Below are positions 5,642 through 20,235 of a stretch of DNA of 41,775 nt, one piece after another. The DNA lies in assembly GCF_001418005.1 (NCBI RefSeq), contig NZ_LIOL01000016.1, positions 1 to 41,775 on the forward strand. Direction: 5' to 3'. The translations under genes and the position numbers were made by a program. A model generated the notes under the pieces. That model made no database searches. It saw only the letters and a program-made list of their open reading frames with translations, and was not told the origin of the DNA. Each line of letters starts with the position of its first letter. Position 1 is the first letter of the stretch. This DNA is from Chelatococcus sambhunathii (GTDB taxonomy: Bacteria; Pseudomonadota; Alphaproteobacteria; Rhizobiales; Beijerinckiaceae).

Positions 5642-5665
5642 CTTCTTCTCCTGAAAGTCTGGATT

Positions 5666-5711
5666 GGGGCCCGGCGTCACCCCGGGGGAGGCGAAAGGCA
5701 CGCCGGGCCCC
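5666..5711. repeat. Perfect 12-bp inverted repeat upstream of recT
   Basis: GGGGCCCGGCGT (5666-5677) and ACGCCGGGCCCC (5700-5711) enclose a 22-nt loop. In the leftward transcript the hairpin lies between the 22-codon gene at 5734-5802 and the recT ribosome-binding site, ending about 25 nt before the start codon. No T-run follows, so an intrinsic terminator is unlikely; attenuation, mRNA stabilisation or protein binding are alternatives. Confidence 0.7.
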
Positions 5712-5733
5712 GTCACCGCTGGGGGGCAGCGGA

Positions 5734-6255: not shown

Positions 6256-7020
6256 TCAGCGGAACGAGGCCTTCACGTCCTCGAAGATGCGGACGCCGGC
6301 GAGTGGCACGGCGTCCTTGTTGACGCGCACGAAGGAGCGGATGGCCTTCTCGACGTCGGCTCGCACGAGGTACGGCCGCAGCTCGTTGAGCGGGATCGCG
6401 CTGTAATCCGTGATCTCGAAGGCCCACTCACTTCGTGCGGTGGCGAGCGTGCCCGAGGAGGTCCGCGTCCGGGTCATCTCGGCCGGCGTCGCCTGCGCAG
6501 CGGCTTCGGCCGTCGCGGCGCGCTCGGCCGCCGCTTCCGCCTTCGCCTCGTGTTTCTCGGCGGCCGTCGGACGGTTCCGTTCGGCTTCGGCCTCGGCAAT
6601 CTTGCGCTGGCGCTCTTCCTCCTCGCGCGCCTTCCGGGCCTCTTCCTCCCGCCGGCGGCGCTCCTCTTCCCGCTTCCGGCGGACATAGTCGTTGGCGATG
6701 CCCTGGAAGACCTTCTGGATGCGCTCGAGGCGGTCGGTGAAGGCGCCGAAGAAGGCATCCACCTCGCGGCCGGCCTGCAGATGCGGCGCCTTCTCCGCAG
6801 TCCGGATGCTCTCGACCCGGCGCGCCAGGGTGCCGGCGTCCTTCACCAGCGTCCCGACTGCGTTGAGATCGTCCTCGCTCTTGATCTCGCGCGGCGCCTT
6901 GTTGGCGCGCTCGGCGATGGTCTCGACGTCGCCGGCAAGACCGGCATGGTTCTCGGCGAGGATGTCCCGCAGCGGCGGCGGCTGGTTGTGCCCGAGGCCG
7001 GGCGCATCGGCGGTCGACAT
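6256..7020 (-). CDS. Coiled-coil phage protein of the recombination module
   Basis: 254 aa. Residues about 105-180 are a long Glu/Arg/Ala coiled coil (RRKREEERRRREEEARKARE onward), flanked by an N-terminal helical domain (FFGAFTDRLERIQKVFQGIA) and a C-terminal globular part (WAFEITDYSAIPLNELRPYL, ending GVRIFEDVKASFR). Proteins with this architecture sit beside YqaJ/RecT genes in proteobacterial phages, and an organising role on single-stranded DNA is plausible but unproven. It starts 3 nt after the YqaJ stop. Confidence 0.8.
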   Translation of the reverse strand: MSTADAPGLGHNQPPPLRDILAENHAGLAGDVETIAERANKAPREIKSEDDLNAVGTLVKDAGTLARRVESIRTAEKAPHLQAGREVDAFFGAFTDRLERIQKVFQGIANDYVRRKREEERRRREEEARKAREEEERQRKIAEAEAERNRPTAAEKHEAKAEAAAERAATAEAAAQATPAEMTRTRTSSGTLATARSEWAFEITDYSAIPLNELRPYLVRADVEKAIRSFVRVNKDAVPLAGVRIFEDVKASFR

Positions 7021-7022: not shown

Positions 7023-8006
7023 TCAGAACCTCTCGGGGATGGACGCCGCCGAGGCGGCAGGGGCCGGCCGGAGTGATCCGGCGGCGATCTTCACGGAGCG
7101 ATAGGTGGACGGCTGGACCGAGTAGCCGCTCCGACGGATCGTCTTGGCGGTGATGACCGTGCCGTCGGCGAGGCGGCCGCGTGTCGCCGTGCCGAGCTTG
7201 GCGATGATCTCGGCATCGATCGCCCGGCGCTCCTTCTCCGCGTCACGGCCGGCGCTCTCGATATCCTTGAGCTCGGCGCGGCGAACCAGCGCCTCCGGCA
7301 ATCGATTGTCGCCCGACAGGTCGACCTCGGTGCCGTCGTCCTGGTCGTAGAGCCGTGCGATGACGGCCGCGTCGCGGTCATACTCGGGCTCCGGCGGCGT
7401 GCCGGCGGCGACCAGCTCCCAGAACCGGGCGACCTCTTCGCGGACGCGGGCGACGATGCCGTCGTGGATCGGGACCGGTACCTCGTGCAGGTCGAGCCCG
7501 TGCCCAACGACGAGGGCCGCAACCATCGCCCAGTCGGCGCCGGAAAGGTGCGCCTCGACGATCGCCTGCACCGCGATCCAGAGCGGCGGCCGCAACTCGC
7601 CGGTATCAGGATCGCGCCACTTCTGCCGAAAGATGCTTGGCTCGACGCTCTTGATCTGGACGATGCCGCGGCCGTCCGCGTTTGTCGCATAGGCGTCCGG
7701 GGTCGCGCCGAGGCGAGCATCGGGGTCACGCAGGTAGACGCACGGCTGCACGACGGTCCACTCGGGATGCTTCTCCTGCAGAAGTTGCAGGGCCACCGGC
7801 TCAAGGAGCCGCCCGCGCAGCATCGGCGGAGCCTCGTCCGGATCCTCGGCGATCTGGCCCGTCTTGAGCATGTAGAGGCCGAATGCGGTCTGGTAGTCGT
7901 GGACCTCGCGGCCGAGGAGGCAGGCCGCAACCGAGGCGGTTACATCCGCCTCGCGGAGTTTGAGCCAGGAGGCGCGGTCGGTGACTTTGTGGGTCTCGAT
8001 CGGCAT
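7023..8006 (-). CDS. YqaJ-like viral recombinase exonuclease (PD-(D/E)XK fold)
   Basis: 327 aa. The N-terminal 190 residues carry the YqaJ/lambda-exonuclease layout: SWLKLREADVTASVAACLLG, then LRGRLLEP (E69), LGATPDAY (D104) and IVQIKS (K119). This family resects 5' ends to leave 3' single strands for RecT. At the E-x-K motif the first residue is Gln117 instead of the usual Glu, which may alter catalysis. Residues about 235-327 are a helical extension ending in an APAASAAS linker. It is in one operon with recT, so the two probably form a two-component recombination pair. Confidence 0.86.
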   Translation of the reverse strand: MPIETHKVTDRASWLKLREADVTASVAACLLGREVHDYQTAFGLYMLKTGQIAEDPDEAPPMLRGRLLEPVALQLLQEKHPEWTVVQPCVYLRDPDARLGATPDAYATNADGRGIVQIKSVEPSIFRQKWRDPDTGELRPPLWIAVQAIVEAHLSGADWAMVAALVVGHGLDLHEVPVPIHDGIVARVREEVARFWELVAAGTPPEPEYDRDAAVIARLYDQDDGTEVDLSGDNRLPEALVRRAELKDIESAGRDAEKERRAIDAEIIAKLGTATRGRLADGTVITAKTIRRSGYSVQPSTYRSVKIAAGSLRPAPAASAASIPERF

Positions 8007-8771: not shown

Positions 8772-9977
8772 TCAGGCCGAGACCTTGTCGAGCAGCTTTC
8801 CGGCGACGCTCTCGAACTCGACGCGATCGTCGGTATGCGGGATGGTCTGGGCGACACGCGTGATGCCCTGGGCGACGTCCCATGCCGTTCGGATCGGCCG
8901 GCCCTCGTGCTGTTCAACGCTCTCGAAGACCTCGACGGCCCGCTTGCGGGAGAGGCCGCGCCCGGCGAGGAATTCCAGCGCCTCGTCCTTGTCGGAGGCG
9001 ATCTTCGCGGCCTTGGCCTTTTCGACGCCCTCGATGAGGAGCCGGGACGAGCCTTCGGCGAAGGACTGCAGCGCCGGCCGGGCCTCCTCGACGAAGCGCG
9101 CCGGGGCGTACTTGCTGTGGCGCATCGAGACTTCCTGAAAACCCTCGACGCCCCACATGATGCGGTTGCAGCAGATCGCCCGAAGGTAGAAGGCCGCGAT
9201 CTTGAGGCTCGACTTCCCGACCTCGGAATTGGTGACGTAGAAGCCGCGGAACATCAGGTCATCGTCGCCATTCGGCAGCTTTCCGACGCTGATGGGATTG
9301 CGGTCGTCGACGAGGAAGATGAACACGTCCCGGTCGCTCGCGTAGAGCGTCGTGGTGTCCTTCGTGACCGGGTGCTCCGGGTCGTAGATCATGGTGCGCC
9401 AGTCCATGACGCCGGGCACCTTCCACCGTGCATCGCCGTTGCCCTTGCCTGCGATCTGCTGGACCGCGGCGACGACGTCGTGATCGAAGATGCGGCCATA
9501 GTCCGGGCCGGTGGCGGCGCGCAGGTCGAGCCGGTCGCGGCCGTAGAGCTTGATCGTCTCGACGTCGCGCCCGTAGCGCATGCCGTAGGACAGCGCGTCC
9601 GCTGCGATCTGCGATGGCAATTTGCGGAGGTAGCCGGCCGGGGCTCCGGCGAGGCCGGCGAGCTGCCCGAAGCTCCAATGCGTCGGCGCGACCTCGCGGC
9701 CGCCGCGCAGGCCGACCGTCATCCGGTGCGTGTCCTCAAGCGACTTCGGATCCGGTGCGATGAACTCGATGCCGCGCGTCTCGATCCGCTCCTCGAACGT
9801 CACGTCACTGCGGGCCTTCACGGCGGCATACAGCGCGTCGAGCGACAGAAAGCGCTCATCGGACGGGCGGGAGATCCACTGGCGTGAGAGATCGCCGCGG
9901 CTCTCGCCGCCGCCGATATTGGCGACCTTGAACTTCGTGGAAGCTGGCGGGGCTGAAATCGTGTTGGTCAGGTGCAT
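8772..9977 (-). CDS. DUF932-family phage/plasmid-like protein
   Basis: 401 aa. The body (PTHWSFGQLAGLAGAPAGYL, FLVDDRNPISVGKLPNGDDD, FRGFYVTNSEVGKSSLKIAA, RAICCNRIMWG) matches the DUF932/TIGR03299-type family found in phages and plasmids next to recombination genes; biochemical function is not established. The start at 9977 is chosen because GGAGGACACGCG precedes it; a longer frame from 10070 would run through the promoter and operators. It is the first gene of the leftward operon, so it is transcribed earliest. Confidence 0.85.
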   Translation of the reverse strand: MHLTNTISAPPASTKFKVANIGGGESRGDLSRQWISRPSDERFLSLDALYAAVKARSDVTFEERIETRGIEFIAPDPKSLEDTHRMTVGLRGGREVAPTHWSFGQLAGLAGAPAGYLRKLPSQIAADALSYGMRYGRDVETIKLYGRDRLDLRAATGPDYGRIFDHDVVAAVQQIAGKGNGDARWKVPGVMDWRTMIYDPEHPVTKDTTTLYASDRDVFIFLVDDRNPISVGKLPNGDDDLMFRGFYVTNSEVGKSSLKIAAFYLRAICCNRIMWGVEGFQEVSMRHSKYAPARFVEEARPALQSFAEGSSRLLIEGVEKAKAAKIASDKDEALEFLAGRGLSRKRAVEVFESVEQHEGRPIRTAWDVAQGITRVAQTIPHTDDRVEFESVAGKLLDKVSA

Positions 9978-10008
9978 CGCGTGTCCTCCATGGCTTAGCG
10001 ATGCGGTA

Positions 10009-10038
10009 ACCATATGCGGTAAGGTTAACCGCTGTAAA
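10009..10038 (-). promoter_or_regulatory. Leftward early promoter (PL-like)
   Basis: Reading the minus strand, TTTACA (10038-10033) is a good -35 box and TATGGT (10014-10009) an acceptable -10, 18 bp apart. The spacer is almost exactly the 17-bp palindrome at 10016-10032, so a bound repressor would block RNA polymerase. The start codon of the first operon gene lies about 32 bp downstream of the -10. Confidence 0.7.
10016..10032. promoter_or_regulatory. Operator palindrome in leftward promoter spacer
   Basis: GCGGTAAGGTTAACCGC: arms GCGGT and ACCGC with a 7-bp centre. The same arms and spacing recur at 10046-10066, 11048-11064, 11082-11098, 11099-11115, 15829-15845 and 15872-15890. A further half-site, GCGGTAACC, sits beside it at 10003-10011. 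Probable binding site of the repressor encoded at 10296-11006. Confidence 0.72.
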
Positions 10039-10045
10039 GAGGAAA

Positions 10046-10066
10046 ATGCGGTTTTTCTCACCGCAT
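10046..10066. promoter_or_regulatory. Second leftward operator palindrome
   Basis: ATGCGGT (10046-10052) and ACCGCAT (10060-10066) are perfect 7-bp arms around a 7-bp centre TTTTCTC. It lies just upstream of the -35 box, 30 bp (about three helical turns) from the first operator, a spacing that would allow cooperative binding on one DNA face. Confidence 0.7.
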
Positions 10067-10095
10067 TCATTTTTCAGCGGGTCGGTTGGGTCCAC

Positions 10096-10128
10096 AAAAA
10101 AACCGCGCGGCGGGCCTCGCGCGCGCGG
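10096..10128 (-). terminator. Intrinsic terminator of the repressor transcript
   Basis: On the minus strand CCGCGCG (10128-10122) pairs with CGCGCGG (10109-10103) across a 12-nt loop and is followed at once by seven T residues (10102-10096). This ends leftward transcription coming from the repressor gene before the leftward promoter begins, insulating the two. Confidence 0.8.
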
Positions 10129-10148
10129 CCGGGAGATCGACGTTGCTC

Positions 10149-10213
10149 CAGGTCTAGGCGGCGCTCTTCAAGCGTCCGCCTAGATGAACCGTTGTACCTG
10201 GAAGGGGGAGGTA
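10149..10213. repeat. Nested inverted repeats in the repressor 3' UTR
   Basis: TCTAGGCGG (10153-10161) pairs with CCGCCTAGA (10176-10184), with CGCT/AGCG extending inward. CCAGGT (10149-10154) can also pair with ACCTGG (10196-10201), while TACCT (10195-10199) can instead pair with AGGTA (10209-10213), so two alternative folds compete. The block lies in the 167-nt untranslated stretch between the repressor stop and its terminator. No gene is visible in 10129-10295. Confidence 0.5.
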
Positions 10214-10258
10214 TCCATTACGAGGAACGTTATAGAGGGAGGCCGCGCGCGCGTGATG

Positions 10259-10289
10259 CGCGAAGGCGCGCGCGATAGCGCGCTTCGCG
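10259..10289. repeat. GC-rich hairpin just downstream of repressor stop
   Basis: CGCGAA (10259-10264) pairs with TTCGCG (10284-10289) and GCGCGC (10266-10271) with GCGCGC (10278-10283), leaving one bulged G and a 6-nt loop. It begins 7 nt after the stop codon on the minus strand. No T-run follows, so it probably protects or processes the mRNA end. Confidence 0.5.
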
Positions 10290-10295
10290 TCAGCG

Positions 10296-11006
10296 TCAAG
10301 AGCAGAAATATGCGACGGCAGCAGCTACCACGCCGACGATGCGGGAGTTGTCCGAAGCGTCAGAGCCACGCGGGACCGTGATCTCCGGATGACCCGAGAC
10401 GAGGCTTTCGAGCTTCACGGCGTCGCCCGCTACGGCGACACGGCGGATCGTCAGCTCGCGCTCTCCATCATCGCGCTCGCGCTGCAAGACGACCAGGTCT
10501 CCCGACACGAGATCGCCGTGCTTCTCGCGATACGGTCCCAAGGCAAGCGCGATCGCAAACATCCCGTCCCGCAACAGGTAGCGCTGCTCGAAATGCCCCC
10601 GGATTTCGTATCCGGACTGGGGTAGGTCCGCAAAGGATGGGATCTGTGGCAGGGCAGGGCCTGGCGCGGATCCTCCTGATGAACGCCAGACACCGGGCTC
10701 GACCGTTCCGGCGAGTGCAACGGGAAGTCCGCCTCGAGGAACGGCTACCGGTCGCGGGGCGTCCAACATCTTGGGGTCGCCCCCGCCGGTCAGCAGCCAG
10801 TCGACGTTCGTTCTGAGGACGGATGCAAGCGCTTCGAGCGTCTCGACCCTTGGTGCTCCCCTTCGTCCTGCCTCGGCGGCCCGAAATATATTCCGGATCA
10901 TGTCCGGCGATCCGCCAGCAGCGATGCTCGCTTCTCTTGCGGACATGCTCAGATCTTCGAGCCGTTGCCTGATCCGATCGGCCAAGTCTCTTACGCCATA
11001 ACTCAT
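10296..11006 (-). CDS. CI-like phage repressor, LexA/S24 fold, catalytic residues apparently missing
   Basis: 236 aa. Residues about 5-72 form an XRE-type HTH (DLADRIRQRLEDLSMSAREA, then MIRNIF and VETLEALASVLRTNVDWLL). Residues about 95-236 follow the S24/LexA C-terminal plan: an Ala-Gly near a possible cleavage point (A99-G100), GYEIRGHFEQRYLLRDGM where active members have G-D-S-M, GDLVVLQRE, and ELTIRRV where the Lys is expected. Here the Ser is replaced (HFE at 138-140) and the Lys appears as Arg188/189, so RecA-stimulated self-cleavage may be lost. A -10 box TATTTT (11045-11040) abuts an operator palindrome, suggesting autoregulation. Confidence 0.88.
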   Translation of the reverse strand: MSYGVRDLADRIRQRLEDLSMSAREASIAAGGSPDMIRNIFRAAEAGRRGAPRVETLEALASVLRTNVDWLLTGGGDPKMLDAPRPVAVPRGGLPVALAGTVEPGVWRSSGGSAPGPALPQIPSFADLPQSGYEIRGHFEQRYLLRDGMFAIALALGPYREKHGDLVSGDLVVLQRERDDGERELTIRRVAVAGDAVKLESLVSGHPEITVPRGSDASDNSRIVGVVAAAVAYFCS

Positions 11007-11047
11007 CTCGTGCCCTCCAAACCCGAGAACCGCGTCTAGAAAATACC

Positions 11048-11064
11048 GCGGTTTTCGTAACCGC
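11048..11064. promoter_or_regulatory. Operator palindrome at the repressor promoter
   Basis: GCGGTTTTCGTAACCGC, extended to 7-bp arms CGCGGTT/AACCGCG (11047-11065). It lies immediately upstream of the minus-strand -10 candidate TATTTT (11045-11040), in the position of a promoter spacer, as at the leftward promoter. A convincing -35 is not visible. Binding here would repress the repressor gene. Confidence 0.68.
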
Positions 11065-11081
11065 GCCAGCAGATGCGAAAG

Positions 11082-11098
11082 GCGGTTGATTTCACCGC
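11082..11098. promoter_or_regulatory. Operator palindrome overlapping rightward -35
   Basis: GCGGTTGATTTCACCGC. TTGATT (11086-11091), a candidate -35 for rightward transcription, lies inside it. Centre-to-centre distance to the operator at 11048-11064 is 34 bp and to the next one 17 bp. Confidence 0.66.
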
Positions 11099-11115
11099 GC
11101 GGTTAAGGTTACCGT
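11099..11115. promoter_or_regulatory. Operator palindrome overlapping rightward -10
   Basis: GCGGTTAAGGTTACCGT, one mismatch in the right arm, directly adjoining the preceding operator. The candidate -10 TACCGT (11110-11115), 18 bp from TTGATT, is weak, so the promoter may need help or may lie slightly elsewhere. It shares GGTTACCG with the half-site beside the leftward operator. Confidence 0.6.
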
Positions 11116-11148
11116 ATCGTTGATTTGGAGGATCGAGGTACCCCAGAC

Positions 11149-11688
11149 ATGACGCTGTTTCGGATGCGGGCCCACGCGCTCGCCGAGGCCTATCGGGCTG
11201 TGAAGGGCAACACGCGCGCGCCCGCCGCCATCGTGCTCGGCCGGTGGGACAAGGTCGACGGCTATCTCGTCGGCCGGAACGACATGCGGTGCGCCAAGTG
11301 GGCGACGCTGGTCGAGTTCTTCGCCGAAAACTGGCCCGAGGAGGCGAAATGGCCGAGCGACGTGCCGCACCCGGCGTCGGCGATAAGCTGGCGGCCGGTT
11401 GAGATGCTCGAACTCGTCGTGCCCGCGTACTGCCGGGCGCAGAACGAAGCCCTCGCCAGCGTCTCGGGCAAGGCGCTTTCCGATGGAACGCGCCTCGGCA
11501 AGTTCCTCGGCGGTGTGCAGGACATGTACACCGACAGCGCTGCGACGGCGCTGGCATTCTGCGCCAAGCACTGGCCCGAGGGCGCCGCCGAGCAGTGGCC
11601 GGCCGAGGTGCCGTTCCCGACAGACCTTTCCAACGTCCCGCCGAACGCGCGCCGGCCGCGCGGCGGTGCTGCAGCTATTGCCGGGTGA
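11149..11688 (+). CDS. Hypothetical early protein, first gene of rightward operon
   Basis: 179 aa, no recognised family. Two tryptophan-rich segments look like imperfect repeats: FFAENWPEEAKWPSDVPHP (about residues 54-72) and FCAKHWPEGAAEQWPAEVPF (about 139-158). ATG 11149 follows GAGG with 10-nt spacing; an in-frame TTG at 11125 lies inside the Shine-Dalgarno region and is rejected. Its place directly after the rightward operators corresponds to a Cro- or antirepressor-type slot, but no HTH is obvious. Expressed when the repressor is absent. Confidence 0.72.
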   Translation: MTLFRMRAHALAEAYRAVKGNTRAPAAIVLGRWDKVDGYLVGRNDMRCAKWATLVEFFAENWPEEAKWPSDVPHPASAISWRPVEMLELVVPAYCRAQNEALASVSGKALSDGTRLGKFLGGVQDMYTDSAATALAFCAKHWPEGAAEQWPAEVPFPTDLSNVPPNARRPRGGAAAIAG

Positions 11689-11698
11689 GGAGCCGATC

Positions 11699-12103
11699 AT
11701 GGCGAAGAAGGTGAAGGGGGGATCGAACACGTTCGATCCGGAGCTGCTCAAGCGCTTCGACAAGGAGATGACGAAGCACGAGGACGAGGTTGCGTCGAAG
11801 CTCGGCGAGTTCCGGGCCTTCAAGAAGGGGCGCGACCAGATGATTGCGGATCTGCTGGACCGCGCCAAGGACGCCGGCATCCCGAAGGATCTGTTCAAGA
11901 AGCTGCGCAAGGAGCGCAAGCACCTCGCGAATGCCCGCGCGATCCGCGCCGGCCTCGATGGCGAAGAGGGCGAGACCTACGACATGCTCAAGGATGCGCT
12001 GGGCGGGCTCGCCGAAACGCCGCTCGGTCAGGCGGCTATGTCTGCCGCCGAGAAGCCGAAGGGCAACGGCGCCGAGATCCTCTCCGGTCTCAAGCAGCTC
12101 TAG
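11699..12103 (+). CDS. Basic coiled-coil protein, weak GapR-like layout
   Basis: 134 aa, lysine-rich. The central part (FKKGRDQMIADLLDRAKDAG, PKDLFKKLRKERKHLANARA, then ETYDMLKDALG) resembles in layout the DUF2312/GapR family of alphaproteobacterial DNA-clamping proteins: helix, a G-x-P/D-x-K/F-K-K-L-R segment, then a short acidic helix with a terminal LG. The resemblance is weak and the sequence longer, so treat it as a hint. GAGGAG lies 8 nt upstream of the ATG. Confidence 0.7.
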   Translation: MAKKVKGGSNTFDPELLKRFDKEMTKHEDEVASKLGEFRAFKKGRDQMIADLLDRAKDAGIPKDLFKKLRKERKHLANARAIRAGLDGEEGETYDMLKDALGGLAETPLGQAAMSAAEKPKGNGAEILSGLKQL

Positions 12104-12153
12104 CAGGACCTGCGACCTCCTCAAGGAATTGGTTCCCCGGCGGATGCTTCGAT

Positions 12154-12182
12154 GTTGCCGCCCGCCGGAACCGGGCGGCAAC
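12154..12182. repeat. Perfect 11-bp inverted repeat before the RuvC-like gene
   Basis: GTTGCCGCCCG (12154-12164) and CGGGCGGCAAC (12172-12182) with a 7-nt loop, ending 3 nt before the GGGAG ribosome-binding site of the next gene. The 96-bp gap holds no gene. Without a T-run it is more likely an attenuating or processing hairpin than a terminator. Confidence 0.65.
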
Positions 12183-12199
12183 TGTGGGAGTGCAACACG

Positions 12200-12751
12200 A
12201 TGCAGGGCAAGAAGATCGCCGCGTTGGACATCGCGACGACGACTGGTTGGTCAGTGGCATATCCAGGCACCCGGCCCCTCATGGGAACAATCCGTTTCTG
12301 CCCGCCGGGGGCGTCGCACGAGGAAATCGGTGCCGCAGCCATCGGCTGGGCATCGGACTTCTTCGCGGTGCACCAGCCGGACATCCTCGTCTTCGAGGCA
12401 CCTCTTCCGTCATCGCACATGCGAGGGCGCACGAATGCGAATACCGCCCGCGTCCTGATGGGCCTTGTGATGGTCATCCCGGCCGTCGCGAAGCTCCGCC
12501 AGGTCCCGATCATTCGCGAAGCGGACGTGCAGGATGTGCGGGGGCATTTCATCGGCACGCGACGGATGAAATCGGCGGAGGCGAAGGCGGCGACGATGCG
12601 GCGTGTCAAGCAGCTCGGATGGGCTGATCCGGACGCTCCGCTCGACCACAACGCGGCCGATGCCGCGGCCGTTTGGGATTACGCCTGCGCCGTGCTCTTC
12701 CCGAAGGCGCATGCATCCGGTCAACCCCTCCTGAGAGAACAGGTCGCCTGA
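12200..12751 (+). CDS. RuvC-like Holliday-junction endonuclease
   Basis: 183 aa. The RNase H-fold metal ligands of RuvC-type enzymes are visible: ALDIATTTGW (D10), LVFEAP (E66) and LDHNAADAAAVWDYA (D149/H150, D154). These enzymes cut four-way junctions and branched DNA before packaging or during recombination. ATG 12200 is chosen over an in-frame codon at 12152, which lies in the hairpin; GGGAG lies about 9 nt upstream. It is an early gene next to the primase-helicase block. Confidence 0.88.
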   Translation: MQGKKIAALDIATTTGWSVAYPGTRPLMGTIRFCPPGASHEEIGAAAIGWASDFFAVHQPDILVFEAPLPSSHMRGRTNANTARVLMGLVMVIPAVAKLRQVPIIREADVQDVRGHFIGTRRMKSAEAKAATMRRVKQLGWADPDAPLDHNAADAAAVWDYACAVLFPKAHASGQPLLREQVA

Positions 12752-13056
12752 TGCGGGCGCCGGTGGAAGCCGCCGAGACAGGCGACGACAACTCGGGTGG
12801 GGGCCGTCGGCCGGACAAGCCGACGTTGGCCGAGATGCGAGAGGTCTGTCTCGACGAGCGCTGCAGGACGGTGAGCATGCAACGGGCGCTCGTCGGCTGC
12901 GGCCTCCGCCTGGCGCCAGACGAAATGCAAATGCGGCGCGTCGCAGTGCTCGATGCGGTGATCGATCTCCTCGATCTCTTCGCTCAGCACCGCGACGTGA
13001 TCCAGCAAGCAATCCGCGCCGCCAAGGCGCGCAGCAACGGCAGCCGCGGCGCCTAG
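12751..13056 (+). CDS. Hypothetical early protein
   Basis: 101 aa, start overlapping the upstream stop as TGATG. The N-terminus is Gly/Asp-rich and probably flexible (AETGDDNSGGGRRPDKP); the rest is helical with two cysteines (MREVCLDERCRTVSMQRALV and AVLDAVIDLLDLF). No family recognised. Confidence 0.65.
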   Translation: MRAPVEAAETGDDNSGGGRRPDKPTLAEMREVCLDERCRTVSMQRALVGCGLRLAPDEMQMRRVAVLDAVIDLLDLFAQHRDVIQQAIRAAKARSNGSRGA

Positions 13057-13100
13057 CGGCGGCAATTACCAGATCCGCAGCCCCCGCGGGGCGAGGCAAC

Positions 13101-13379
13101 ATGAAGCGCGAAGACGACTACCGGCTCGCGGCCTACCTCATCAGAGAGGCGGCGCAGCAGCTCGATCTTGCAACAAACGCCATCGGTCGGCGCACGCAGG
13201 ACCGCCGCGTGATCGAGCGGCGGGAACGCCTCATCATCGACCTCCTGCGGCGCACCGAGATCCCTGAAACACGAATAGCGAAGATGCTCGGCATGCACCG
13301 CAACAGCATCCAGCAGATCGAGCGGCGCCACTTTGCGCGCACCGGCGAACGGGTGAGGGCAGCGCATGTCCGGCTCTGA
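13101..13379 (+). CDS. Small HTH DNA-binding protein
   Basis: 92 aa. The C-terminal half has a Fis-like or sigma-like HTH (LIIDLLRRTEIPETRIAKML then GMHRNSIQQIERRHF). The N-terminal half is a helical, charged region. It overlaps the primase start by 14 nt. It probably assists replication or regulates; target unknown. Confidence 0.72.
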   Translation: MKREDDYRLAAYLIREAAQQLDLATNAIGRRTQDRRVIERRERLIIDLLRRTEIPETRIAKMLGMHRNSIQQIERRHFARTGERVRAAHVRL

Positions 13380-14520
13380 CGATCTCGCCTTCGACGACTG
13401 GGTGTCGCGCGCCCGCGAGGTGCCGCTCGATCGCGCAGCAGACATGGTTGGCGCCAAGCTGCGCCGCAGCGGCCCCGAGATGATCGGCCCGTGCCCCGCC
13501 TGCGGCGGTACCGACCGGTTCTCGATCAACCCCAAGAAGCACGTCTGGAACTGCCGCGGCGCCCGCGGCGGCGACGACGCCATCGGCCTCGTGATGCACT
13601 GCCAGGACATCGAGTTCCTTCCGGCGTGCGAGCTCCTGACGGGCGAGGCGCCTCCCGGCCGGGACAGCCGGCCGCCGGATCCGGCCGTGGTTCGCGAACG
13701 CCGCGAAGAGCGGCGCGAGGCCGAGCGGCAGCGCGAGGAAGAGCTCCACGAAGAGCGCCGTCGCAAGATGAACGGGGCGGCGGACCTCTTCGAGAAGGCC
13801 GGGCCGTTCTTCGGCTCCCATGCCGAGGCCTACATGCGCCGGCGTCATCTCGTGCTGTCGTCGGAACAGGCCTGCGACCTGCGGTTCATGCCGTCGCTGC
13901 CTTACCTCGGCTTCACCGACAAGCACGCGGAGGAGCAGGAGAAGCTGGGCGAATATCCGGCGATGATCGCCGCGATCCGCAACGCCGCCGGCGAGATCAT
14001 CGGCGTCCATCGAACCTATCTCGATCCGGTCGAACCGAAAAAGCTCGTCCCGCCGGGCGACCGGACGCGCAACGCTGCGAAGAAGATGTACGGCAACGCC
14101 AACGGCATGATCCGCCTCGGTCCGATCATGCCCTACATGGCCATCGGCGAAGGCATCGAGACTTCGCTCGCCTGGTGGCAACTCGGGATCGGGCCGGAGG
14201 AATGCGGCGTGGCCGCCGCCGGCAGCCTCGGCAACCTGTCGGGCGCGTCGCTCGACACCATGCCCCATCCGAAGGTGCGGGGGCGGACCATCCAGAACGG
14301 CGTCCCGGATCCGCAACGCCCCGGCCTCGTCATGCCGGTCGGCGTCAAGGGCGTCATCCTGCTCGGCGACGGCGACAGCGAGCCGTTCGCAACGCGGGCG
14401 CATCTCCTGACGGGCGGACGGAAATTTCAGGCGGCGGGGCTCGAGGTGCTGGTGACGATCGCACCCGACGGCAAGGACTTTTCGGACGTCTACTCCGAGC
14501 AGCAGCGGGACGCAGCATGA
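13366..14520 (+). CDS. DnaG-like primase: zinc-binding plus Toprim domains
   Basis: 384 aa. The N-terminal zinc-binding primase domain has GPCPACGGTDRFSINPKK (C43, C46) and HVWNC (H59, C63). A charged helical linker (residues about 105-140) leads to a Toprim domain with IGEGIETSLAW (about 258-268) and VILLGDGD (about 327-334). It would make RNA primers for phage replication. It is followed at once by a RepA-like helicase, so the two form the priming-unwinding pair. Confidence 0.88.
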   Translation: MSGSDDLAFDDWVSRAREVPLDRAADMVGAKLRRSGPEMIGPCPACGGTDRFSINPKKHVWNCRGARGGDDAIGLVMHCQDIEFLPACELLTGEAPPGRDSRPPDPAVVRERREERREAERQREEELHEERRRKMNGAADLFEKAGPFFGSHAEAYMRRRHLVLSSEQACDLRFMPSLPYLGFTDKHAEEQEKLGEYPAMIAAIRNAAGEIIGVHRTYLDPVEPKKLVPPGDRTRNAAKKMYGNANGMIRLGPIMPYMAIGEGIETSLAWWQLGIGPEECGVAAAGSLGNLSGASLDTMPHPKVRGRTIQNGVPDPQRPGLVMPVGVKGVILLGDGDSEPFATRAHLLTGGRKFQAAGLEVLVTIAPDGKDFSDVYSEQQRDAA

Positions 14521-15827
14521 TGGACCTCCCGCCGCTCGTCGCCTTCGCAGACTGGGAGCCGGAGGCCGCCAGGTTCCTGACGCCGGAGTTCCGGAGCCGC
14601 TTCGGTGCCGTGTTCTGGGGCGACCTGGACAAGACCGGCGACGAATACGAGATGCTCGTCGACGGCATGGTGACGAAAGGCGAGCGGTCCCTCATCGTCG
14701 GGGCGAGCCAGACCGGCAAGTCATTCTGGGCGATCACGCTCGGCATGGCCGTTGCCAGGGGCGTTCCGTTCTTCGGCCGGCGTGTCGAGCGCGGCCTCGT
14801 CATCTACATCGCCGCCGAGAGCGCGCGCGGCGTGCGCAAGCGGCTCAAAGCCTACCGGCAGTATCACGGCATTCCGGCCGACGAGGCGATCCCCTTCGTC
14901 GTGCTGACGAAGCCGGTCGACCTGTTCCGGAACGACGACGACATGGTTGCGCTGATCGACGAGGTGCGGGCCATCGCGGCCATGTTCGACCTGCCGCTCG
15001 CGCTCATCGTCATCGACACGCTCTCGGCAGTGGCGCCCGGCTGGAACGAGAACACGAGCGAGGATGTCAGCCGGCTCCTGCGCAGGGCGCAGCAAATGGT
15101 GCTGTCGACCGGCGGGGCCGTGACGATCGTCCACCACAAGAACAGCGTCGGCAATAAGCCGCGCGGGCACACGTCGATCTTCGCGGACGTCGAGAATGTC
15201 ATCGACATCGACCACGTCACGACCGAGGGCCACAAGGGGCAGCCCGGCCAGATCGTGAAGGACGCGCAGGGGCGCAAGATCAAGCGCGCGCTCGTGACGA
15301 AGCAGAAGGACGGCGAGGACGGCCTCGAATGGCGCTTCGTGCTGCGGCAGGTCGAGATCGGCCGGAACAAGTACGACGAGCCGATCACGTCATGCGTCGT
15401 CGAGGCGCCCGACATGGGCGCGCTGGAAGGTGTCGACGCACGGTCGCCCGACCGCGGCCCCCGGTTGTCCGACCAGGCCGAGATGTTCCGCCGGGCGATC
15501 GAGGACGCGCTCGATAGCCACGGCATCATGCCGCCGGCGGGCGTCCCGCTGCCCAACTCGATCCGCGTCGTCGAGTACAAGCACGTTCGCGACCGCTTCG
15601 CCGCGACCTGGTTCGGCGACGAGGGCGACGAAGAGAAGCGGGCCGCGGCCGTCCGGCAGGCGCTGAAGCGTCACGGCGAGGCCCTGATGCGGCGCGGCAT
15701 CATCGGCAAGGCAGGGAATTACGTCTGGCTCACCGGCAAACGCCTCGCCGGCGAACCGGCGCCGGAACCGATGGCGTCGGCGCCGGCCGTGCCCACCGCC
15801 TACGACGACGACCTGCCTTTCGTTTGA
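14517..15827 (+). CDS. RepA-like/AAA_25 replicative helicase ATPase
   Basis: 436 aa. Walker A is GASQTGKS (62-69), Walker B LALIVIDTLSA (D167), and VTIVHHKN follows as a sensor-like segment, matching RecA-fold hexameric helicases of the RepA/AAA_25 group. The C-terminal 150 residues look like a winged-helix accessory region (RVVEYKHVRDRFAATWF). The start overlaps the primase stop (ATGATG; the second ATG at 14520 is equally possible). It probably unwinds the fork together with the primase. Confidence 0.87.
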   Translation: MMDLPPLVAFADWEPEAARFLTPEFRSRFGAVFWGDLDKTGDEYEMLVDGMVTKGERSLIVGASQTGKSFWAITLGMAVARGVPFFGRRVERGLVIYIAAESARGVRKRLKAYRQYHGIPADEAIPFVVLTKPVDLFRNDDDMVALIDEVRAIAAMFDLPLALIVIDTLSAVAPGWNENTSEDVSRLLRRAQQMVLSTGGAVTIVHHKNSVGNKPRGHTSIFADVENVIDIDHVTTEGHKGQPGQIVKDAQGRKIKRALVTKQKDGEDGLEWRFVLRQVEIGRNKYDEPITSCVVEAPDMGALEGVDARSPDRGPRLSDQAEMFRRAIEDALDSHGIMPPAGVPLPNSIRVVEYKHVRDRFAATWFGDEGDEEKRAAAVRQALKRHGEALMRRGIIGKAGNYVWLTGKRLAGEPAPEPMASAPAVPTAYDDDLPFV

Positions 15828-15828
15828 T

Positions 15829-15845
15829 GCGGTTTAATTCACCGC
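15829..15845. promoter_or_regulatory. Operator palindrome after the helicase stop
   Basis: GCGGTTTAATTCACCGC, beginning 2 nt after the helicase stop codon. It is the upstream member of a pair (centres 44 bp apart) that controls an internal promoter within the early operon. Confidence 0.68.
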
Positions 15846-15854
15846 GTTTTTCGG

Positions 15855-15883
15855 TTGTCGTTCGTCTCAGATGCGGTTAATCT
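15855..15883 (+). promoter_or_regulatory. Internal early promoter candidate
   Basis: TTGTCG (15855-15860) and TAATCT (15878-15883) are 17 bp apart, a fair -35/-10 pair. The -10 falls inside the palindrome at 15872-15890, so a bound repressor would exclude polymerase. The next start codon is 29 bp downstream. Confidence 0.55.
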
Positions 15884-15890
15884 AACCGCA
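15872..15890. promoter_or_regulatory. Strongest operator palindrome, over the internal -10
   Basis: TGCGGTTAATCTAACCGCA: 8-bp perfect arms around a 3-bp centre. It is the most symmetric copy of the operator family in the window. Its place 6 kb inside an operon, with its own promoter, shows that the repressor controls this sub-operon directly and not only through the first rightward promoter. Confidence 0.74.
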
Positions 15891-15911: not shown

Positions 15912-16535
15912 ATGTTGAAGACCTTCACCGCCATCGCCGCCTTCTACGATAGCGACCGTCGCGCCCGGATTGTGGTCGAAGCCGAGGATTTCGCCGACGC
16001 CTGCCGAAAGGCCGTCGACATGGTCGACAACGGCGAGGTTGAGACGCACGTCGAGACCTTCGACCCGACGGCCACGTTCATCTACGGCGTCGTTGAGGGC
16101 GACGCCGACCCGTGGGGCGGCGCCGCCAACGTGCCGGCTGAGTTCTCCGAAGCGGCCGCACTGGGGGGCTCCGAGCGCATTGAGAAACGGAGCGCTTCGC
16201 GAGCCGACAGCGCCAGCTCTGTGACGGGCGCCCGCCTCTTCAATTGCTGCACCGACCATGCCGAGCCGGACTGGTCGCGCTTCACGTCGCTGGAACTCGC
16301 CGGCTGCCGCGATCTCAACGGCACGGACGACCCGGCCGGCACGATGATTGCCGGTGGACAGTCCGCCGGGGCCGCCGAGTTCTTCACCGTGTACGGCCGC
16401 AGTGCCGACGGGGAGGCCGGGGCGATCACCGACATCGAGGACCCGCGCGACGCGCTGGCCGTCGCGGCCGAGCTCGGCATGCGCTCCCGACTGCCGGTGA
16501 CTGTGTCCGTTACGCTCGCCGGGGAGGGGGTGTGA
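15912..16535 (+). CDS. Hypothetical protein under an internal repressed promoter
   Basis: 207 aa. No family recognised. Two segments look alike: an N-terminal TFTAIAAFYDSDRRARIVVE with ADACRKAVDMVD, and a C-terminal FFTVYGRSADGEAGAITDIE with DALAVAAEL, suggesting a duplicated beta-alpha unit. A pair of cysteines (NCCTDH) sits in the middle. GGAGGACACGCC precedes the ATG, nearly the same leader as that of the leftward operon's first gene (GGAGGACACGCG). Being first after a repressed internal promoter, it may be a regulator or host-takeover factor. Confidence 0.72.
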   Translation: MLKTFTAIAAFYDSDRRARIVVEAEDFADACRKAVDMVDNGEVETHVETFDPTATFIYGVVEGDADPWGGAANVPAEFSEAAALGGSERIEKRSASRADSASSVTGARLFNCCTDHAEPDWSRFTSLELAGCRDLNGTDDPAGTMIAGGQSAGAAEFFTVYGRSADGEAGAITDIEDPRDALAVAAELGMRSRLPVTVSVTLAGEGV

Positions 16536-16870
16536 TGGAGCCGATCCGCACCCCACACGAGGCGACCCTCGACATCATCCGCGAAGTCGCCGAGCGCCAC
16601 GGGGTTCCCGAGGCGCTTGTCCGTAGTCGTTGCAAGGACCGGAAGACGCTTGCCGCCAAGCGGGAGGCGATCCGCCGCGTCAAGGATGAGCGCGGCCTCT
16701 CAAGCGTGAAGATCGGCGAGATCTTCCGCATCAACCACACCTCGGTCCTTTACGCGCTCGGCACGACAAAGCGCTCACAGGAGAAGGCGGCCCGAGCCGC
16801 CGCGGAGCGGGACAGGCGACGGCGCGAGCGATCTGAACGGTTGCCCCTGCAACAGGATGTCGCGCCATGA
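16535..16870 (+). CDS. DnaA domain IV-like DNA-binding protein
   Basis: 111 aa. Residues about 8-75 match the C-terminal domain of DnaA: a helical ATLDIIREVAERHGVPEALV, KREAIRRVKDERGLSSVKIG, and the signature-like INHTSVLYALG. The AAA+ domain is absent, so only the DNA-reading part is kept. In DnaA this domain binds DnaA boxes. A phage origin binder or a competitor of host DnaA are possible roles. The end is Arg-rich. The ATG overlaps the upstream stop (TGATG). Confidence 0.8.
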   Translation: MEPIRTPHEATLDIIREVAERHGVPEALVRSRCKDRKTLAAKREAIRRVKDERGLSSVKIGEIFRINHTSVLYALGTTKRSQEKAARAAAERDRRRRERSERLPLQQDVAP

Positions 16871-17220
16871 GCAAGGAAGGGGCTTTCAATCCAGCGCGGA
16901 CGATCAATCCGGGTCTGATCGAGCGTCGGCAAATCACCATCACGGTTTCGCGGATCATGTACGACCGCCTTGGAGAGATGGCCAAGGAGGCGGGGCTATC
17001 CCGCACAGCCTATGCCGAGCGGCTCTTCGAGGCGGCCTACACCGCGAGGTGCAAGGAAACCGGCGATCTGCAACTGGACAGGATGTGTGCCGCCGTCGCG
17101 CTGTTGTGGGCGAAGGACTGGAACACCGCGGAAATTGGGCTGGCCCTAAAGGTCGATGAGACGACCGTTTTGCGGATGCTTGAGACTTTCCGCAGGATGC
17201 GGGACGGAGCTGATGCGTAA
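16867..17220 (+). CDS. Putative ribbon-helix-helix/HTH DNA-binding protein
   Basis: 117 aa, start overlapping the upstream stop (ATGA). Residues about 20-55 (QITITVSRIMYDRLGEMAKE then GLSRTAYAERLFEAA) have the beta-helix-helix pattern of ribbon-helix-helix proteins. The end (WNTAEIGLALKVDETTVLRM) looks like a second HTH. The combination suggests DNA binding; no exact family was recognised. Confidence 0.7.
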   Translation: MSKEGAFNPARTINPGLIERRQITITVSRIMYDRLGEMAKEAGLSRTAYAERLFEAAYTARCKETGDLQLDRMCAAVALLWAKDWNTAEIGLALKVDETTVLRMLETFRRMRDGADA

Positions 17221-17710
17221 CGCCGCCAGATCAGCTCTTCCCGAGGCGCCCGTCTGCCCGGCGTGCCACCTCGTCTGCCGGCTCACGAACGGGCGCGAGG
17301 TCTATTCGCACCGCCCGGACCTGCACGACAAGCCGATCTGGCGGTGCGACGGCTGCGACGGTTACGTCGGCTGCCACCCCGGCACGACGCGGCCGCTTGG
17401 CACGCCGGCCGGTGCCGAGCTGCGCCGGGCCCGCATGCTGCTGCACGACCAGATGATCGATCCGCTCTGGATGACGGCGATCGAGGCCGGTGGCTACCAG
17501 CCCGAGGATCGCGCCGCGCGCGCGAAGATCGTCCGGGCGGCCCGAAACCGCGTGTACGCCTTCCTCGCCGAGAGGCTCGGCCTGTCGCGGGAGGAGACGC
17601 ACACCGCGTTCTTCGACCTTGAGACCTGCCGGCGCGCCTGGCGCGCGCTGCAGGGCGTCACCTATCCCGAAATCCGCGCCTGGGCGCATCGCCGGAGGTC
17701 ATCCTCGTGA
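17213..17710 (+). CDS. DUF3268-like zinc-finger-containing protein
   Basis: 165 aa. A four-cysteine zinc site is visible: CPACHLVC near the start and CDGCDGYVGCHPGTTRPLG, followed by GAELRRARMLLHDQMIDPLW and a helical domain with AYAFLAERLGLS-type spacing. This arrangement matches the DUF3268 family of phage proteins, function unknown. It overlaps the upstream gene by 8 nt and the downstream GTG start by 4 nt. Confidence 0.82.
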   Translation: MRNAARSALPEAPVCPACHLVCRLTNGREVYSHRPDLHDKPIWRCDGCDGYVGCHPGTTRPLGTPAGAELRRARMLLHDQMIDPLWMTAIEAGGYQPEDRAARAKIVRAARNRVYAFLAERLGLSREETHTAFFDLETCRRAWRALQGVTYPEIRAWAHRRRSSS

Positions 17711-20235
17711 CCGTGGACCGCTATCGGCAGTTTCTCGAGACGAAGGTCAAGATGGCGCCTCGCACCGGGTTCGAAGTCTCGGAAGACGAGATCAACCCGG
17801 CGCTGCAGCCGCACCAGCGGGATATCGTCCGCTGGGGTGTCGCCGGTGGGCGCCGCGCCTACTTCGCCCGCTTCGGCCTTGGCAAGACGGTGATGGAACT
17901 GGAAACGAGCCGGCTCATCCTTGAGCGCGCCGGCGGCCGCGGTCTCATCGTGATGCCGCAGGATGTGCGGATCGAGTTCCGCGACGACGCCCGCAACATT
18001 CTGGGCTGGTCGACGGTGCCGGAGTTCATCCGGCGGATCGAGGATGCCGACGAGACGGGGCTCTACCTCACCAACTACGAGACGATCCGCGAAGGCAAAC
18101 TTGACCCTGCCGAGTTCACGGTCGCATCGCTCGACGAGGCTGCGGTGCTGCGGAGCTATGGCTCGAAGACCTATCAGGAGTTCCTGCCGCTCTTCGAGGA
18201 CGTTCGGTTCCGGTATGTCGCGACGGCGCTGCCTTCGCCCAACCGTTACAAGGAGCTGATCCACTACGCCGGCTTCCTCGGCATCATGGACACTGGGCAG
18301 GCCCTAACGCGCTTCTTCCAGCGCAACAGCACGAAGGCCGGCGATCTCACGCTCTATCCGCACAAGACGCGCGAGTTCTTTCTGTGGCTTAACAGCTGGG
18401 CGATCTTTCTGCAGCAGCCGTCGGACCTCGGCCATTCCGACGAGGGTTACATCCTGCCCGAGCTCATCGTCCGCTGGCATGAGGTCAAGGTCGATATCGC
18501 GGACGCTGGGGCCGACGATGACGGGCAGCTTCGACTGATGCGCGACGCGGCCGTTGGCCTTCAGGCGACGGCACGCGAGAAGCGCAACACGCTCTCCAGG
18601 CGCATCGAAAAGCTTGTCGAGATCCGCAGCGCTTCGCCGGCAGATCATTTCATCCTTTGGCACGATCTCGAGGATGAGCGTCGGGCCATCGAGGCTGCCT
18701 TGCCGCAGTCCCGAAGCGTCTACGGAACGCAGGATCCGGACGAGCGCGAGCAGACAATCGTTGGTTTCAAGGCCGGTGAGATCACCGACCTTGCCGCGAA
18801 GCCGGTTATGCTGGGCGCTGGCGGCAACCTGCAGCGCCACTGCCACCGCGCGATCTATGCCGGCATCGGCCACAAGTTCCATGACTTCCTGCAGTCGGTG
18901 CACCGGCTGCAGCGGTATGGGCAGCGGTATCCGGTCGAGATCGACCTGATCTATGCGGAGACCGAGCGCGAGGTGCGGCGCGACCTGGAACGGAAGTGGG
19001 CGCAAGATCGCGAACTCCGGGAGACCATGTCCGCTCTCATCAAGGAGCATGGCCTCGACAAGTTGTCCGGCTTCGATGTGCTGACGCGCTCCATCGGCAT
19101 CGACCGGCAAGAAGCCGCCGGCGAGAACTGGCGCGTTGCTAACAATGACTGCGTCGATGAGACCCGGCGGATGGCGACCAATTCGGTCGACCTCGTCGTC
19201 ACGTCCATCCCCTTCGGAACCCAGTACGAGTACTGCGCCAGTTACAACGACTTCGGCCACAACGATGACAATGCCGGCTTCTTCCGGCAGATGGACTTTC
19301 TGACGCCGGAGCTGCTGCGCGTGCTCAAGCCCGGCCGGGTCGCGTGCGTCCACGTCAAGGACAGGATCCAGTTTGGCAGCGTGACGGGGACGGGTCGGTA
19401 CACCGTCGAGCCCTTTCATGCCGACACGATCGAGCACTTCCGGGCGCACGGCTTTCTCTACATGGGCATGCGCGTCATCACGACAGACGTCGTCCGGGAG
19501 AACAACCAGACGTACCGGCTCAGCTATGGCGAAATGCTGAAGGATGCGACGAAGATGGGGGCGGGCTCGCAAGAGTTCGTGCTCATGTTCTGCAAGCCGC
19601 AGTCGGACCGCTCCCGGGGATATGCAGATGATCCCGTGATCAAGTCCGCCGAGGAATACGGTCTCGCGCGGTGGCAGATTGATGCGCACGGCTATTGGCA
19701 ATCGTCCGGGAACCGCTTGCTGGCACCCGACGAGTGGAAGGCACTGGCCGGGCGCAAGGGTGGCATGCAGGCGATCATCGCGCACTGGCGCGAGGAGAAC
19801 CTCGCTACGGTCTACGACTACGGCCGTCACGTCGAGGTTGCCGAGGCGCTCGCGTCCATCGATGCGCTTCCGAAGACCTACATGGCGGTGCCGCCCCACA
19901 GCGCGGACCCGAGCGTCTGGACCGACATCAACCGGATGCTCACCCTCAACACCGACCAGGCGGCGAAAGGGCGTGAGCAGCACGTTTGCCCCCTTCAGTT
20001 CGATATCGTTGACCGCCTGATCGACCTCTACTCGATGCGCGGCGAGCTCGTTTACGACCCGTTCGCCGGCATCGGCACGGTGCCCTATCGCGCGGTCCTG
20101 CGCGGGCGCCTCGGCGCAGGCGCCGAACTCGAAGCGAAGTATTGGCGCGACAGCATCCGTTACCTGGAAGCCGCCGAGCGTCAGCTCGCGGTGCCGTCCC
20201 TGTTTGACCTGCTCACCAGCGAGGAAGCGGCATGA
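17707..20235 (+). CDS. SF2 helicase-DNA methyltransferase fusion
   Basis: 842 aa, GTG start overlapping the upstream stop. The N-terminal half is an SF2/SNF2-type ATPase: LQPHQRDIV (33-41), a short Walker A RFGLGKT (55-61), motif II SLDEAA (141-146), ATALPSPN (172-179) in place of TATP, and motif VI QSVHRLQRYGQ (396-406). The C-terminal half is a beta-class amino-methyltransferase: VVTSIPFG (497-504, motif IV) and DPFAGIGTVPYRA (about 786, motif I). It would methylate adenine-N6 or cytosine-N4. No nuclease is present, so self-modification against host restriction is more likely than a restriction enzyme. Helicase and methylase are separate genes in many phages; here they are joined. Confidence 0.88.
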   Translation: MTVDRYRQFLETKVKMAPRTGFEVSEDEINPALQPHQRDIVRWGVAGGRRAYFARFGLGKTVMELETSRLILERAGGRGLIVMPQDVRIEFRDDARNILGWSTVPEFIRRIEDADETGLYLTNYETIREGKLDPAEFTVASLDEAAVLRSYGSKTYQEFLPLFEDVRFRYVATALPSPNRYKELIHYAGFLGIMDTGQALTRFFQRNSTKAGDLTLYPHKTREFFLWLNSWAIFLQQPSDLGHSDEGYILPELIVRWHEVKVDIADAGADDDGQLRLMRDAAVGLQATAREKRNTLSRRIEKLVEIRSASPADHFILWHDLEDERRAIEAALPQSRSVYGTQDPDEREQTIVGFKAGEITDLAAKPVMLGAGGNLQRHCHRAIYAGIGHKFHDFLQSVHRLQRYGQRYPVEIDLIYAETEREVRRDLERKWAQDRELRETMSALIKEHGLDKLSGFDVLTRSIGIDRQEAAGENWRVANNDCVDETRRMATNSVDLVVTSIPFGTQYEYCASYNDFGHNDDNAGFFRQMDFLTPELLRVLKPGRVACVHVKDRIQFGSVTGTGRYTVEPFHADTIEHFRAHGFLYMGMRVITTDVVRENNQTYRLSYGEMLKDATKMGAGSQEFVLMFCKPQSDRSRGYADDPVIKSAEEYGLARWQIDAHGYWQSSGNRLLAPDEWKALAGRKGGMQAIIAHWREENLATVYDYGRHVEVAEALASIDALPKTYMAVPPHSADPSVWTDINRMLTLNTDQAAKGREQHVCPLQFDIVDRLIDLYSMRGELVYDPFAGIGTVPYRAVLRGRLGAGAELEAKYWRDSIRYLEAAERQLAVPSLFDLLTSEEAA

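Follow-up and report, generated by a model that had tools for sequence, protein, structure and literature searches.

The window, by which we mean the whole stretch of 41,775 bp analysed here, comprises most of a prophage, and a CI-like repressor gene (10296-11006, minus strand) lies between its leftward recombination genes and its rightward replication genes. The leftward operon begins with a gene encoding a DUF932 protein (8772-9977, minus strand; Pfam DUF932, phrog_1362) and continues with genes for a RecE-like exonuclease (7023-8006), an exonuclease-like protein (6256-7020) and RecT (4619-5716); phrog_434, phrog_10477 and phrog_561 cover these three downstream genes. The ATG at 9977 was taken as the start of the DUF932 gene because a ribosome-binding site is present there, and the stretch 10016-10064 falls within an open reading frame (8772-10070) only if a far upstream ATG is the start. 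On the other side, a divergent partner gene in the position of Cro (11149-11688, plus strand; phrog_7669), encoding a tandem copy of a domain of about 70 amino acids, is followed by genes for a RuvC-like resolvase, a primase and an AAA helicase (12152-15827, plus strand; phrog_159, phrog_510 and phrog_906; DUF7146 and AAA_25). Behind these lies an internal sub-operon (15912-20235, plus strand) encoding an unknown protein, a DnaA-C-like protein, a helix-turn-helix (HTH) protein, a DUF3268 protein and a helicase-methyltransferase, the DnaA-C and HTH matches being below the Pfam cut-offs. An Rfam search returned no match.

The motif GCGGT-N7-ACCGC is present in seven exact copies in the window, as compared with 0.17 copies expected from 100 dinucleotide shuffles (sd 0.40, largest count 2). 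Six of these copies, together with one single-mismatch copy, occupy three gaps. Seven such sites had been listed in a sequence-only reading of this DNA, and the list holds: six are exact, 11099-11115 is a true one-mismatch copy, and the entries 10046-10066 and 15872-15890 correspond to the exact sites 10048-10064 and 15873-15889 plus flanking bases. The accompanying statement that the sites lie in gaps and none in genes is correct for the seven listed, but an unlisted exact copy at 25950-25966 falls within open reading frames (e.g. 25749-26228, plus strand); it scores 12.8 bits with the full matrix and is thought to have arisen by chance. The matrix scan of the window that the same reading had proposed separates the listed sites from every non-site, as the seven operators score 15.6-25.4 bits with a left-one-out matrix and the best non-site of any run reaches 14.6. 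Their cores contain 5-6 A/T out of 7 positions, whereas the 22 host matches that have exact arms and lie outside the window average 2.7. With up to two mismatches allowed, 86 matches are found against 65 expected, a count that 1 of 100 shuffles reaches, so the loose motif is weak when taken alone. Palindromes of this kind might arise by chance in GC-rich DNA or might represent terminator hairpins, and a terminator scan does mark three of the operator palindromes, with terminator-like sites numbering 6 against 0.9 expected in one scan and 1 against 0.5 in another; however, the excess of exact copies, the clustering of the operators and the finding that relatives have this half-site at homologous positions (see below) make this explanation exceedingly improbable.

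We compared the sites with candidate promoters scored against 300 random 100-bp pieces of the whole window, which are mostly coding and may therefore flatter promoters in A/T-rich gaps. Operator OL1 (10016-10032, exact, 21.4 bits left-one-out) occupies the spacer of the leftward promoter of the recombination operon (TTTACA-18-TATGGT, 10009-10038, minus strand), whose score of 9/12 is reached by 2 of the 300 pieces; OL2 (10048-10064, exact, 18.9 bits) is 32 bp from OL1. Between the repressor and its partner are OR3 (11048-11064, exact, 19.0 bits), which is closest to the repressor gene, OR2 (11082-11098, exact, 19.4 bits), 34 bp from OR3, and OR1 (11099-11115, one mismatch, 15.6 bits), which abuts OR2. 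OR1 lies in the spacer of a candidate rightward promoter (TTCACC-18-TATCGT, 11091-11120, plus strand; 8/12, with 16 of 300 pieces scoring at least 8), and OR3 in that of a candidate repressor promoter (CTGGCG-18-TATTTT, 11040-11069, minus strand; 7/12). The third region contains O3a (15829-15845, exact, 23.1 bits), located just past the helicase stop codon, and, 44 bp from it, O3b (15873-15889, exact, 25.4 bits, the highest of the seven), which lies over the -10 element of a candidate internal promoter (TTGTCG-17-TAATCT, 15855-15883, plus strand; 7/12). The latter is not significant, since 115 of 300 pieces score 7 or more, and the candidates at the repressor gene and at a further operator, O4, described below, likewise score no better than random pieces of the window. 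From these scores, a promoter at the recombination operon appears credible, and the case for one at the replication operon is weaker.

Outside the window, the motif behaves as background: the host genome (4.37 Mb) contains 29 exact matches including the window's seven, as compared with 26 for the reversed control pattern. When the exact-arm host matches, to which the matrix scoring was confined, were ranked, the only other match in the top range was O4, at positions 2849-2865 of host contig C10 (24.3 bits); the next two, at 18.2 and 16.3 bits, fall in the range that the window sites span with the left-one-out matrix. O4 was considered as a host target, a candidate that we rejected in view of the contig, which by sequence comparison is very likely the other end of the same prophage. 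O4 is also present on the contig of a near-identical twin of this prophage, which is 98.65% identical to the window over the compared stretch; none of 70 arm bases has changed between the two, although the twin is too close to show selection. Because C10 is just 86-99% identical to the twin, a second related element, instead of one prophage, is a possible reading. The three control regions announced by the sequence-only reading are all present, but the count is incomplete, as the strong site on C10 makes four regions probable, the fourth lying outside the window.

The N-terminus of the putative repressor is a helix-turn-helix (phrog_4 transcriptional repressor, residues 8-81, E 1.3e-10), its Pfam HTH matches being below cut-off only. 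A degenerate Peptidase_S24 domain matches residues 164-227 with 17.2 bits, under the cut-off of 23.3, and alignment indicates that the catalytic Ser and Lys are both absent, GDSM being replaced by GHFE and SVKEV by TIRRV. By this alignment, the repressor lacks the Ser-Lys pair with which CI-type repressors cleave themselves under RecA stimulation. DNA damage is therefore unlikely to trigger its self-cleavage, and prophage induction would need some other signal. No second close repressor was found in the host genome (next match E 0.004), and solved structures gave no credible match for either the repressor or the partner protein.

Relatives of the repressor's DNA-binding domain, three examples of which are 48-57% identical to it, have the half-site GGT..ACC in front of the repressor genes that encode them, in its longest form as TGCGGT..ACCGCA. 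After removal of near-identical upstream regions (29 to 27 loci and 43 to 39 loci) and with the window and its twin (L218, L219) excluded, a first set of 27 non-redundant loci contained 49 sites, with a site in 22 loci and none in 5, against a mean of 0.5 in single-base-shuffled sequence. A second set of 39 contained 79 sites, present in 35 loci and absent upstream in 4. The two counts are not independent, because the locus sets overlap and some genes are shared. The same half-site is found upstream of the repressor genes of L198 and L199. It is noticeable that the core differs in length: all 79 sites in relatives have N6 and none N7, whereas the window has seven at N7 and none at N6. Literature listings showed nothing on this repressor family or on a 6-to-7-bp spacing change. 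Phage 16-3 is a relevant case, but the accessible portion of PMC3694467 gives no spacing data for it.

On the divergent side, TTGAC is followed by an operator in 29 of 43 relative loci. All 12 phage loci counted (from 29 viral loci, without a shuffle control) carry one or more additional sites at a distance of 0.7-3.6 kb downstream from the repressor start, arranged as pairs in 9 of them, and in 9 of 11 (L220 dropped) the last of these sites immediately follows TTGAC, which suggests that the downstream repeats usually sit inside a promoter. Two loci link the operator to the DNA-binding domain. In L045 the DUF932 protein is 90% identical to that of the window and the repressor DNA-binding domain is different; its operators read TTTGGAAA, and all 6 copies in the 13.4-kb locus fall in the same two gaps. 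L046, likewise combining the same neighbour gene with another repressor domain, has different operators in the same gaps. An operator common to the wider DUF932 group was rejected, as only 4 of the 27 DUF932-bearing loci examined have an adjoining repressor relative, and no operator family was recognised in two of these (phages L042 and L047). The CI-like protein, which the sequence-only reading had named as the ligand, is indirectly supported in that role by the half-site upstream of the relatives' own genes, its downstream repetition in phages, and the parallel change of operator and domain in L045 and L046.

A third operator cluster was not seen among the CGGT-N6-ACCG matches of 10 whole relative records, a strict pattern that misses AGGT-type sites and that matched 57 times in all, compared with 26 times for its reversed control, with no excess in 2 of the 10 records. 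Nor was a comparable pair found in L195, L196 and L197, which are related to the 15912 gene or the helicase, or in L115, one of 80 helicase loci. Since no third cluster was seen in the 10 records, O3 and O4 are without comparative support beyond the twin. We consider it unlikely that O3 acts as a stoperator-like transcription roadblock, or as part of a replication origin beside the helicase gene, in place of a repressed promoter. Such a role would fit with the lack of a promoter above background and with the GTCAC repeats, spaced about 21 bp apart, that are visible by eye after the helicase gene of L115; but O3a and O3b are symmetric, have the two highest scores of the seven and are directly followed by a ribosome-binding site and a gene.

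The position of the partner gene relative to the repressor is conserved among relatives. It diverges from the repressor gene in 23 of the 43 loci from relatives, or 25 of 45 counting the window and its twin, according to a profile built from the same 45 loci on which it was counted. This profile of relatives matches the window's protein twice, marking the gene as a tandem duplicate. In lambda, the same operators serve both CI and Cro. By analogy, the sites here might serve mainly this Cro-like partner, or the partner and the repressor both, and the conserved divergent arrangement and the position of the gene as the first behind the rightward promoter favor such a role. However, the profile detects no partner in 20 of the 45 loci, 19 of which nevertheless have N6 sites; the operators change along with the repressor DNA-binding domain, and the partner has neither a Pfam match nor a credible structural match, so that we regard the partner as an improbable ligand. 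The gene at 11149 may encode a counter-repressor or antirepressor.

We therefore favor, with a probability of roughly 85%, the interpretation that these sites serve as operators for the CI-like repressor that the prophage itself encodes, and together form a lambda-like repressor regulon. The direct basis for this is the sites, their rarity and placing, the half-site in relatives, and the change of operator with the DNA-binding domain. In the lysogen, a repressor dimer would bind each 17-bp palindrome. At OL, where the operator lies inside the promoter, it would block the leftward recombination operon; at the three sites of OR, the rightward operon for replication as well as the repressor gene itself; at O3, the internal sub-operon with the DnaA-like and helicase-methyltransferase genes; and at O4, probably, a short leftward accessory operon. 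Direct control over three operons, as the sequence-only reading had envisaged, is well supported for recombination and fairly supported for replication; the sub-operon is likely to be controlled too, although the score of its candidate promoter is no better than background.

More tentatively, a lineage that kept the half-site and widened the spacing by 1 bp could have become insulated from the many repressors with the same half-site in related bacteria and phages, changing immunity by geometry and not by recognition; the same lineage would have lost self-cleavage, with the duplicated partner or another signal inducing all operons at once. This scenario is possible but doubtful. The repressor-operator family of alphaproteobacteria and their phages offers many natural examples for comparing half-site, spacing and repressor, and the spacing change by one base and the lost self-cleavage residues raise questions about the origin of immunity types and about induction without a cleavable repressor.

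The layout resembles the lambda CI-Cro region: in both, the repressor gene is flanked by a leftward recombination operon and a rightward replication operon, three operators adjoin it, others lie at the leftward promoter, and the partner gene is divergent. As in lambda, one operator family is found at both early promoters (OL and OR, candidates of 9/12 and 8/12). Unlike lambda, the prophage has two extra control regions and a leftward cluster of two, its repressor is without self-cleavage residues, and its partner shows no detected kinship to Cro. Within the N6 family, which occurs in alphaproteobacteria (including Faunimonas, Methylovirgula, Microvirga and Methylobacterium) and phages, the DNA-binding domain, the GGT..ACC half-site and the operators upstream of the repressor's own gene are shared with the window. 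The partner gene is present in about half of that family and single-domain there, as opposed to duplicated here; the sites are 16 bp (N6) instead of 17 bp (N7); the S24 catalytic residues are retained in several, not all, of the aligned members and missing here; and no third cluster such as O3 was seen in the whole records searched with CGGT-N6-ACCG. The 7-bp half-site spacing, the two extra control regions and the loss of both self-cleavage residues are the features that set this phage apart. In TP901-1 (PMC7250872), CI represses the mor gene via three sites, OR, OL and OD; one CI repressor at three operator sites and a divergent partner are common to both systems, but here three or four regions precede separate operons, the comparison being one of layout, not of protein. 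The stoperators of cluster A mycobacteriophages (PMC6550527, PMC9283540) are asymmetric, number up to 30 per genome and stop transcription. They resemble the present sites in being scattered over a phage genome under one repressor, with a motif that differs where repressors diverge; in contrast, the sites described here are seven or eight symmetric palindromes, seven in gaps of the window and one strong site on C10, and stand mostly at operon starts.

The sequence-only reading had proposed that one family of 17-bp palindromes, GCGGT-N7-ACCGC, occupies three distant control regions outside genes, with the product of the nearby CI-like gene (10296..11006, minus strand) as its ligand. The exact pattern occurs seven times in the window versus 0.17 expected, and six of these copies, together with one bearing a single mismatch, fall in three gaps: OL (starts 10016 and 10048), OR (11048, 11082 and 11099) and O3 (15829 and 15873). 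Scored with a symmetric matrix that left out each site in turn, these seven sites (15.6-25.4 bits) stand apart from every other position in the window (at most 14.6 bits), which bears out the proposed family; the seventh exact match, at 25950, lies within ORFs and scores 12.8 bits. Across the host genome the exact pattern is found 29 times, including the 7 in the window, versus 26 for the reversed control. The best of the 22 matches outside the window is 2849-2865 of another contig, C10 (24.3 bits), followed by two at 18.2 and 16.3 bits.

The window, a complete contig of 41,775 bp (C16) within a 4.37-Mb genome, encodes most of a temperate phage as judged from gene content: leftward recombination genes, the CI-like repressor and rightward genes for replication, followed by those for terminase, portal and tape measure. 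A near-identical IMG/VR contig of 57.9 kb (the twin) shows 98.65% identity to it across the 16.7 kb compared; window positions 40745-41775 match the twin at 100%, and the twin extends past the window end, where it encodes a baseplate wedge protein. Since C10:1-2985 aligns with the twin's first 3.2 kb (1-3231) in three pieces at 86-99% identity, the start of C10 is very likely the missing end of the window prophage, which would then very likely be split across at least two assembly contigs. The twin has the C10:2849 site too, at 121-137; its exact matches number 8 in all, where the reversed control gives none, and one of the 8 is a copy of the ORF match. Possibly this end of C10 belongs instead to a second, related element, but no second close repressor was found in the host. 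As part of the window prophage, C10 would supply a fourth region, O4, a single site upstream of a leftward gene without assigned function and then a nuclease-like gene. One nuclease-like gene and uncharacterised genes stand behind O4 at this end (L006; L248 in the twin). Elsewhere in the phage, a DUF5131 protein (21360-22565, 338 bits) is encoded ahead of the structural genes, and ARAGORN calls a candidate tRNA-Glu (23455-23539) and a candidate tRNA-Ala (41066-41162).

At OL, a 17-bp operator is placed between TTTACA and A-TATGGT, a promoter score matched by 2 of 300 random 100-bp pieces of the window (mainly coding DNA, a comparison that may favour gaps). The best rightward pair at OR scores 8/12, with site OR1 in its spacer, and 16 of the 300 pieces score at least 8. 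Candidate promoters of the repressor gene, O3 and O4 each score 7 and are unproven, because 115 of 300 pieces reach or exceed that value.

The DNA-binding domain of the window repressor is 57%, 50% and 48% identical to those of three example relatives, whose family has six bases between half-sites (N6) where the window has seven. Upstream of the relatives' own repressor genes, [AC]GGT-N6-ACC[GT] occurs at 49 sites in 27 non-redundant loci (shuffled mean about 0.5, single-base shuffling), with a site in 22 of the 27 and none at N7; positions are nearly fixed, near -17, -51 and -74. Another set, of 43 loci (39 once redundancy was removed), overlaps the first in part; it gave 79 N6 sites, none at N7, and a site in 35 of 39. 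The half-site of the window is found again in TAGCGGTTTTTAAACCGCTA and TGCGGTTCAACAACCGCA, the sequences at loci L198 and L199. A quick tree of the domain, many of whose branches are weak, places the window within the N6 family (branch support 84, one state change), and spacing has likely changed from 6 to 7. On the divergent side, TTGAC followed by an operator is seen in 29 of 43 loci. Each of the 12 viral loci examined, out of 29, has one site or a cluster in the region downstream of the repressor start (pairs in 9); the last such site is preceded by TTGAC in 9 of 11, which places the operator in the promoter spacer, as at OL. In L202-L246, many repressor genes, both chromosomal and of phages, are preceded by 16-bp operators at near-fixed places. 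The operator closest to the gene often stops only one or a few bases ahead of the start codon, a closeness that hints at leaderless transcripts.

Loci with other repressor domains provide a counter-test. L045 encodes a DUF932 protein 90% identical to the window's (8772..9977, minus strand, behind OL), yet its repressor has a different DNA-binding domain; there, TTTGGAAA occurs six times, always in the two gaps beside the repressor and DUF932 genes and nowhere else in the 13.4-kb locus. Related sites occupy those gaps in L046, and by eye TCGG..CCGA-like sites adjoin the L115 repressor; no operator family was recognised in L042 and L047. Wherever readable, then, operator and repressor vary together. 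At 10279-10370 of L115, behind its helicase gene, GTCAC repeats about 21 bp apart, seen by eye, are perhaps iterons of a replication origin.

The catalytic serine and lysine of S24 are both missing from the window repressor and from those of L042, L045, L046 and L115. Several N6 relatives retain the two residues; L225 also lacks the serine, so this loss is not unique to the window lineage. For the divergent gene at 11149-11688 (the partner), a profile made from the very loci searched detects counterparts in 23 relatives out of 43, and in 25 of 45 loci once window and twin are counted. The window's partner protein gives two tandem profile matches and is thus a tandem duplicate of a domain present once in the relatives aligned; its gene position suggests a Cro or an antirepressor. 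Most likely, the repressor of a lysogen would sit within the promoters at OL and OR and silence the early operons, limit its own gene from OR3, and from O3 and O4 keep down two more operons, holding phage functions off even should one promoter leak. Because self-cleavage is unlikely, another trigger would be needed for release, the partner protein being the first candidate.

Compared with the N6 relatives, O3 and O4 are additional regions of the window phage: by our own reading of the strict-pattern matches (57 versus 26 for the control), no third cluster is present in 10 whole relative records. Among open-licence papers we found no report of the N6 family or of a natural one-base spacing change in it; control of several operators by one repressor is already known. 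Lambda-type control, with one repressor and two early promoters, is classical. In TP901-1 a CI repressor works at three operators (PMC7250872), and in cluster A mycobacteriophages repressor sites are scattered over the genome, their motifs varying in step with the repressors (PMC6550527).
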